Shown here: one piece after another, positions 32,405-32,950 of the stretch
How the letters are laid out: every line of letters starts with the position of its first letter
Position numbering within the stretch: position 1 is the stretch's first letter
From: Bacteroidia bacterium
GTDB lineage: Bacteria > Bacteroidota > Bacteroidia > AKYH767-A > OLB10
Direction of reading: 5' to 3'
NCBI GenBank assembly: GCA_016788185.1
Contig: JAEUTF010000270.1
Location: 1-32,950, forward strand
DNA: 32,950 nucleotides
Program-made: the position numbers and the translations under genes
The notes under the pieces: model-generated
Database searches by the model: none
Told to the model about the DNA's origin: nothing
The model's input: only the letters and a program-made list of their open reading frames with translations

Positions 32405-32950
32405 AAACTTATACACCGGCTTTCTGAACCGGAGTGCGGATCCTGCAAAGCATTTCAGGTACCTGATTTTACTTCAGAGAGGGGATGGTGGCTCTCGGTT
32501 TCTCCTGATTGGCTCATCGTATTTTTTTGACTCAACAAGCTTTACCCATTTCAAACGAATACAAACGTTTAGTATCCGGCTTTTTGTTTCCCTTTAAATA
32601 ATTTTACTTTTGGGGCGGGACCGGAGGCCCCCTCATTTATCTTACCTGGCTTTATGCATTTTTATGACCCCGGCAAGCGCCATCCATTTTAAACGGATGC
32701 AAACGATTATTATCCGGCTATCTGTTCTCCAATACTTAATTTTACTCCGGGGCGGGGATAGCGTCCCCCAAAAAATCAAATGTCTTTAAACGGATACAAA
32801 CGCTTATTCAACGACTATCCATTTTCTGTTTCATAATTTTACTCCGGGGCGGGGCTGGAGGCCCCCGGTTTATCCCACTTGAAGCATCGCATTTTCATGA
32901 GTCCAGTAAGCTCCAATCTTTTTAAACGGCAGCAAACGCTCATCATCCGA
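32405..32950. repeat. Imperfect tandem array of a ~137-bp unit, continuing past the window edge
   Basis: Four units are aligned by two anchors. ATTTTACT occurs at 32466, 32601, 32739 and 32836, with spacings 135, 138 and 97. CAAACG occurs at 32562, 32700, 32797 and 32933, with spacings 138, 97 and 136. One unit lacks about 40 bp. Just after ATTTTACT each unit has a GC-rich inverted repeat, followed by an ATTTT(T/C)ATGA(C/G)-type stretch and then TTTAAACGGA-type sequence before the next CAAACG. No convincing gene is present in this 600-base stretch; an open frame at 32382-32597 is mostly repeat. The right boundary is unseen. I do not recognise the repeat family. Confidence 0.75.

Follow-up and report, generated by a model that had tools for sequence, protein, structure and literature searches.

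Tandem arrays of gene-less promoters with start-site hairpins in a Bacteroidia genome share their anatomy with promoters of DNA-uptake genes

Transformation genes are known in Bacteroidota, and in other phyla competence boxes such as the cin-box of ComX and the CRP-Sxy/TfoX sites have been described. Families of sibling small RNAs driven by one regulator are known as well, for instance LhrC1–5 of Listeria. The CiaRH-dependent csRNAs of Streptococcus pneumoniae, sibling small non-coding units each with its own regulator-dependent promoter, act on competence (PMC4507080). Intergenic repeated hairpins, some of them in tandem, form the REP, BIME and REPIN elements associated with RAYT (Y1) transposases (PMC3733652, PMC3116915). 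In the open literature we found neither a competence regulon or box described for Bacteroidota nor a description of the promoter-hairpin arrays analyzed below.

The window, a 32,950-nt stretch of Bacteroidia DNA, is contig C213 of a 3.23-Mb genome (97% complete, 282 contigs) and ends in an array of diverged repeats that shares features with all of these systems. As in the sibling small RNAs, each copy carries its own promoter, consisting of a box, a −33 repeat and a −7 box at fixed spacing; unlike csRNAs and LhrC, the arrays comprise about 60 copies in tandem rather than five, the predicted product is only ~20–30 nt long with one hairpin starting at +1, and relatives do not share the hairpin sequence. 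Like the REP-type elements, the repeats are intergenic hairpins, and one array in a relative adjoins a Y1_Tnp gene; however, the unit here is an 80-bp promoter plus hairpin, the hairpin varies by lineage, and most genomes, including this one, have no linked transposase. Like the cin-box and CRP-Sxy sites, the box is a promoter element shared by dispersed uptake and recombination genes, but it differs in sequence, is built of phased 10-bp repeats and occurs in Bacteroidota. On balance we favor, with modest confidence, the view that the units are orphan competence promoters fused to a G-rich start-site hairpin, giving short hairpin RNAs and/or titrating the activator. Our computational analysis showed the promoter anatomy of the units, its identity with that of uptake-gene promoters, and selection on the box, the −7 box and the hairpin.

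In the last 500 bases of the window, the repeat occurs once in degenerate form, three times in full and once truncated, always on the + strand. The degenerate first copy (32441–32496; nhmmer 16.6 bits, direct repeat D3) has lost the upstream box and retains a −7-like TGATTTTA (32464–32471) and a GAGAG/CTCTC hairpin (32477–32496). Unit B (32552–32632; covariance model E 1.2e-11) is a full core with a 1-bp insertion, in which the box opening with CAAACGAATACAAACGTTTA is followed by the −7 box TAATTTTA (32599–32606), a G-run from 32612 and a hairpin at 32617–32631. In unit C (32690–32769; covariance model E 3.9e-16), alignment A1 placed the box of phased TANNCGNNTA-type repeats (TAAACGGATG CAAACGATTA T TATCCGGCTA) at 32690–32720, with the last repeat centered on −33; the −7 box TAATTTTA lies at 32737–32744, the predicted start is the G at 32749, 5 nt past the box by the −12 to −5 rule (PMC9723704), and the hairpin GGGGAT-AGC-GTCCCC spans 32754–32768. 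Unit D (32787–32866; E 2.5e-17), which of all copies in the genome fits the family model best, has its −7 box TAATTTTA at 32834–32841, a predicted start at 32846 and the hairpin GGGGCT-GGA-GGCCCC at 32851–32865. Only the beginning of unit E (32923–32950) precedes the contig end. The 44 bases at 32907–32950 are identical to positions 1–44 of contig C6, and the two contigs are very likely adjacent in the genome; since C6 holds the rest of unit E (C6:17–95) and two further copies (C6:157–236 and C6:290–354), the window array has at least seven copies. The spacings of 135, 138 and 97 bp that the original prediction had given between diverged copies were confirmed. Its tandem unit of ~137 bp stood as a repeat and fell as a fixed length, the repeat being a rigid 80-bp core with variable linkers; the GAGAG/CTCTC stem that it described exists but belongs to the degenerate copy, the real stem being GGGGNN-NNN-NNCCCC at core positions 65–79.

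The search for the unit elsewhere, proposed as a check of that prediction, recovered it on other contigs of the same genome and in relatives. BLAST with the unit detected more arrays on C90, C195, C108, C74, C160, C163 and C249; a profile search counted 64 copies on nine contigs including C213 and C6, and the covariance model 61 copies on nine contigs at E 0.01. Apart from a few gaps, the copies are spaced mostly by 95–101 or 125–144 bp. Several contigs break inside arrays; therefore, the true copy number is probably higher, and two contigs may share one array. The arrays of this genome occupy unrelated intergenic places without consistent neighbors. Searches of the array against Rfam (gathering threshold and E 5) and for tRNAs, of a plasmid collection for the repeat, and of IMG/VR viral contigs for the box and hairpin patterns returned no match, and a generic sigma-70 scan of the array found nothing, as expected for Bacteroidota. 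A protein-repeat reading was rejected, the open frames of the array shifting between 97-bp units.

A gap-free alignment of 63 cores from this genome and its relatives over 80 columns resolved the anatomy of the unit. Columns 1–31 (TAAACGGATACAAAYGTTTATTANNCGACTA) contain TANNCGNNTA-type repeats with a phase of 10–11 bp, columns 36–40 read TTTTC, columns 48–55 carry TAnnTTTA/G, which is the Bacteroidota −7 box located 16–17 bp past the last repeat, and columns 60–80 (GGGGCGGGGACNNNGTCCCCC) hold the G-run and the G-rich hairpin, located at the predicted start. TAnnTTTG serves the main sigma factor of Bacteroidota as its −7 box and, in Flavobacterium psychrophilum, occupies positions −12 to −5 (PMC9723704). 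Applying this published rule, we infer +1 at column 60, where the G-run begins, which would place the CG of the third repeat at −34/−33 and the hairpin at +6 to +20. The identification of each core as a promoter of the kind found before DNA-uptake genes is well supported, and the array makes sense once most of the unit is recognized as a promoter, which the original prediction had missed; its two proposals, protein-binding sites and small structured RNAs, each keep a place in the explanation. Transcription and function of the units are inferred.

The unit core was present in 12 of the 24 genomes of the family and in three genera, and a 20-bp core pattern matched without mismatch in 8 of the 24; the reversed box pattern, used as a control, gave no match in this genome and its 23 relatives. 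In this genome the box, here without the hairpin, was found between comEC and a divergent rhomboid gene, ~100 bp before recA, between purK and hpt, before DUF3127, PDDEXK_3 and lamin-tail genes, and before a second ssb, the housekeeping ssb being devoid of it. Genes directly behind hairpin-less boxes in this genome or relatives comprised comEC, comF, a ComEA-like HhH gene, DUF2851 and DUF3127, and also genes for a PolB-like exonuclease, PDDEXK_3, purK, a lamin-tail protein, antitoxins and ribE. At comEC, the box with the same −33/−7 spacing and no hairpin directly preceded all eight readable starts in genera g1 and g5 (some with 1–3 mismatches) and none of five in other genera; dprA had no box in the nine genomes in which dprA was found. 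The box sites of the relatives, which are draft genomes, fell into two classes. In 17, an open frame starts within 75 nt of the −7 box, and the next 34 nt have a mean GC of 0.38 and a mean folding energy of −4.4, two of these sites resembling hairpin units with a chance frame. In 45 sites without an immediate gene, mean GC was 0.64 and mean energy −13.0, with 44 of 45 at −6 kcal/mol or lower; the array units belong to this second class of gene-less box promoters. Hairpin units at times lie 100–300 bp upstream of a gene-linked box, as at comEC (L088, L146), the exonuclease gene (L135, L157) and DUF2851 (L099), and G002, G003 and G009 likewise contain tandem clusters. In G002, a 265-aa protein without a Pfam match is encoded directly behind a perfect box (L149:2210–3004).

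A scan of GTDB genomes with the extended box returned at least 117 stretches. Among the matches listed, the box lay upstream of ssb in many Bacteroidota taxa and also before yifB/comM (twice), HhH, tyrosine recombinase and helicase genes; the last repeat was 16 or 17 bp from the −7 box in 31 of 39, and a −7 box was present at 39 of 246 sites compared to 3.1% in shuffles. Draconibacterium mangrovi and Fulvivirga sediminis are examples of cultured Bacteroidota with the box. The matches listed also included box-plus-hairpin layouts outside the family with other stems, such as GGGGTGGGAAATGTAGTTTCCCCTTTTTT (L211, L244). The family model itself had no match at 1e-5 in 394 other Bacteroidota genomes under strict filters that left few candidates to score, and the exact unit therefore looks family-bound. 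In many Bacteroidota, a small zinc-finger gene (C-x2-CG-x2-L-x-GR-x-DKKFC..C, DUF2116-like), divergent from ssb, lies beside the box (L202, L188, L195, L222, L239, L241, L243 and L268) and is a candidate new competence gene.

Conservation among the 49 distinct cores of this genome was concentrated in the promoter elements and the stem. The mean pairwise difference was lowest in the hairpin stem (0.025), followed by the specified −7 positions (0.062), the G-run (0.098), the specified box positions (0.156) and the TTTTC element (0.167); it reached 0.43 in the hairpin loop, 0.52 at the two free −7 positions and 0.54–0.61 in the spacers. The copies have therefore diverged widely, keeping only those low-difference parts, although copying of a small number of functional masters could account for part of this conservation. 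At the two variable stem pairs, 90 of 98 cells held a standard pair where re-dealing predicts 74.6, and none of 10,000 shuffles reached that number (49 own-genome copies, kinship not controlled), bearing out the covariation proposed originally; across all 63 cores, likewise with kinship not controlled, 93.1% of cells were paired compared to 90.1% in shuffles. Independent support for selection on the hairpin came from the relatives, in which its sequence was swapped completely while its position was unchanged (GGGTTTAAACCC in G002, GGGATGCATGGCATCCC in G009, GGGGGCCTAGTGGCCCCC in G014 and GGTCCCGAGGTTTTCTCGGGA in G020). The pattern upholds the original view of a hairpin under selection rather than a neutral satellite. 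As the original prediction had cautioned, GC richness alone brings some pairing: the share of orphan sites that outperformed composition shuffles at the 0.1 level was 64%, short of the full set. A neutral satellite whose pairing arises by chance from a GC-rich sequence would agree with the tandem arrays, variable linkers and degenerate copies; nevertheless, we regard it as extremely improbable because functional positions differ by 2.5–16% and the spacers of the same copies by 54–61%, the same core recurs in three genera, and its anatomy equals that of gene promoters.

The regulon marked by the box is, in our judgment, likely that of competence. Transformation of Riemerella requires ComEC, ComF, RecA and an HhH protein and is reduced by an insertion in yifB (PMC8459023); here, comEC, comF, HhH, recA, second ssb and yifB/comM genes share the element at a fixed distance. 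The LexA repressor (PF01726) was absent from all eight genomes searched and found in 10 of 14 control genomes, which led us to reject an SOS regulon and makes a competence box the probable interpretation. The regulon is not purely one of uptake, since purK, ribE, antitoxin and transposase genes have the box in front of them as well. The occurrence of purK, hpt, ribE, antitoxins, helicases and nucleases among the box genes, together with recA and ssb, which would equally fit DNA repair, could point to another network serving general DNA stress or nucleotide supply. We find this improbable: comEC, comF, HhH/ComEA-like and yifB/comM are uptake genes, LexA is missing, and it is the second ssb, not the housekeeping one, that has the box.

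An intact promoter is kept in ~60 gene-less copies, each with a start-site hairpin, and transcription starting at the units with a short hairpin RNA as its product is therefore the simplest account. A putative activator would bind the phased TANNCGNNTA repeats, the last of which would replace the usual −33 element, and would recruit RNA polymerase to the TAnnTTTG-type −7 box, where the polymerase would meet GGGGNGGGG...CCCC at +1 to +20 rather than a gene. The product would be a stable hairpin RNA of very small size. In 25 of the 49 own-genome copies, the hairpin has a T-run behind it, which makes it terminator-like and would end the transcript; the other half lack one, so termination is not general. 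The ~60 promoters could then supply a multi-copy hairpin RNA and/or form an activator sink setting the threshold or the end of competence. We consider it fairly probable that the units are transcribed; that the hairpin RNA is the functional product, as opposed to titration or plain spread, is a close call to which we lean slightly less than halfway.

A pure decoy, in which the copies titrate the competence activator while the hairpins merely stop run-through into neighbors and the RNA has no role, would fit the excess of orphan boxes (~60) over gene-linked ones, of which our searches of this genome found roughly ten, the scatter of the arrays over unrelated intergenic places with no consistent neighbor, and the T-runs of the 25 copies. 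However, a decoy could do without a −7 box and without a precise +1 hairpin, yet these are the most conserved parts, and the copies of genus g5 are mostly single and dispersed, making this version unlikely. Somewhat less likely still is a selfish repeat, for example a REP-like miniature element moved by a Y1 RAYT/IS200-type transposase, which carries the competence promoter of its transposase gene and keeps hairpin and promoter since copies without them would not spread. Such an origin is suggested by the array on contig C129 of G002 (L328:1195–2888), where seven box-plus-hairpin units lie directly upstream of a Y1_Tnp (IS200-like) gene whose own promoter is a hairpin-less box, and by one Saprospiraceae Y1_Tnp gene (L207) that adjoins a box. 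A transposable element would require a mobilizer, for which a Y1 transposase is the one candidate. Nevertheless, the association held at only 1 of the 30 Y1_Tnp loci fetched from the 24 family genomes, hairpins of another kind flank the Y1 gene of this genome, and G003 carries 14 units but lacks a Y1 gene. The hairpins also change in sequence from lineage to lineage while keeping their position, which is not how a transposase recognition site behaves. The miniature-element family of the original prediction is thus unsupported as a general explanation. The only Y1_Tnp gene of this genome (L151:1010–1870, contig C195) has its own GC-rich flanking hairpins of the GCCCCGAAGGGGC type in a typical REP/RAYT arrangement.

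More broadly, we tentatively propose that Bacteroidota share a competence box of phased TANNCGNNTA repeats ending at −33, and that some lineages have multiplied it into gene-less arrays, producing hairpin RNAs or binding the activator, that tune natural transformation. The box marks regulon members from sequence alone and makes the search for the activator direct, and it proposes new uptake genes, namely DUF2851, DUF3127, PDDEXK_3/GxxExxY, the zinc-finger gene divergent from ssb, and the lamin-tail proteins. In genus g5 (L295, L299, L088), low-complexity tails such as CAAATTATCAAATTAGCACATT fill the intergenic sequence ahead of box copies. Unexpectedly, the arrays also supply dozens of conserved promoters that drive no gene, and they point to a hitherto undescribed, multi-copy component of the competence system.
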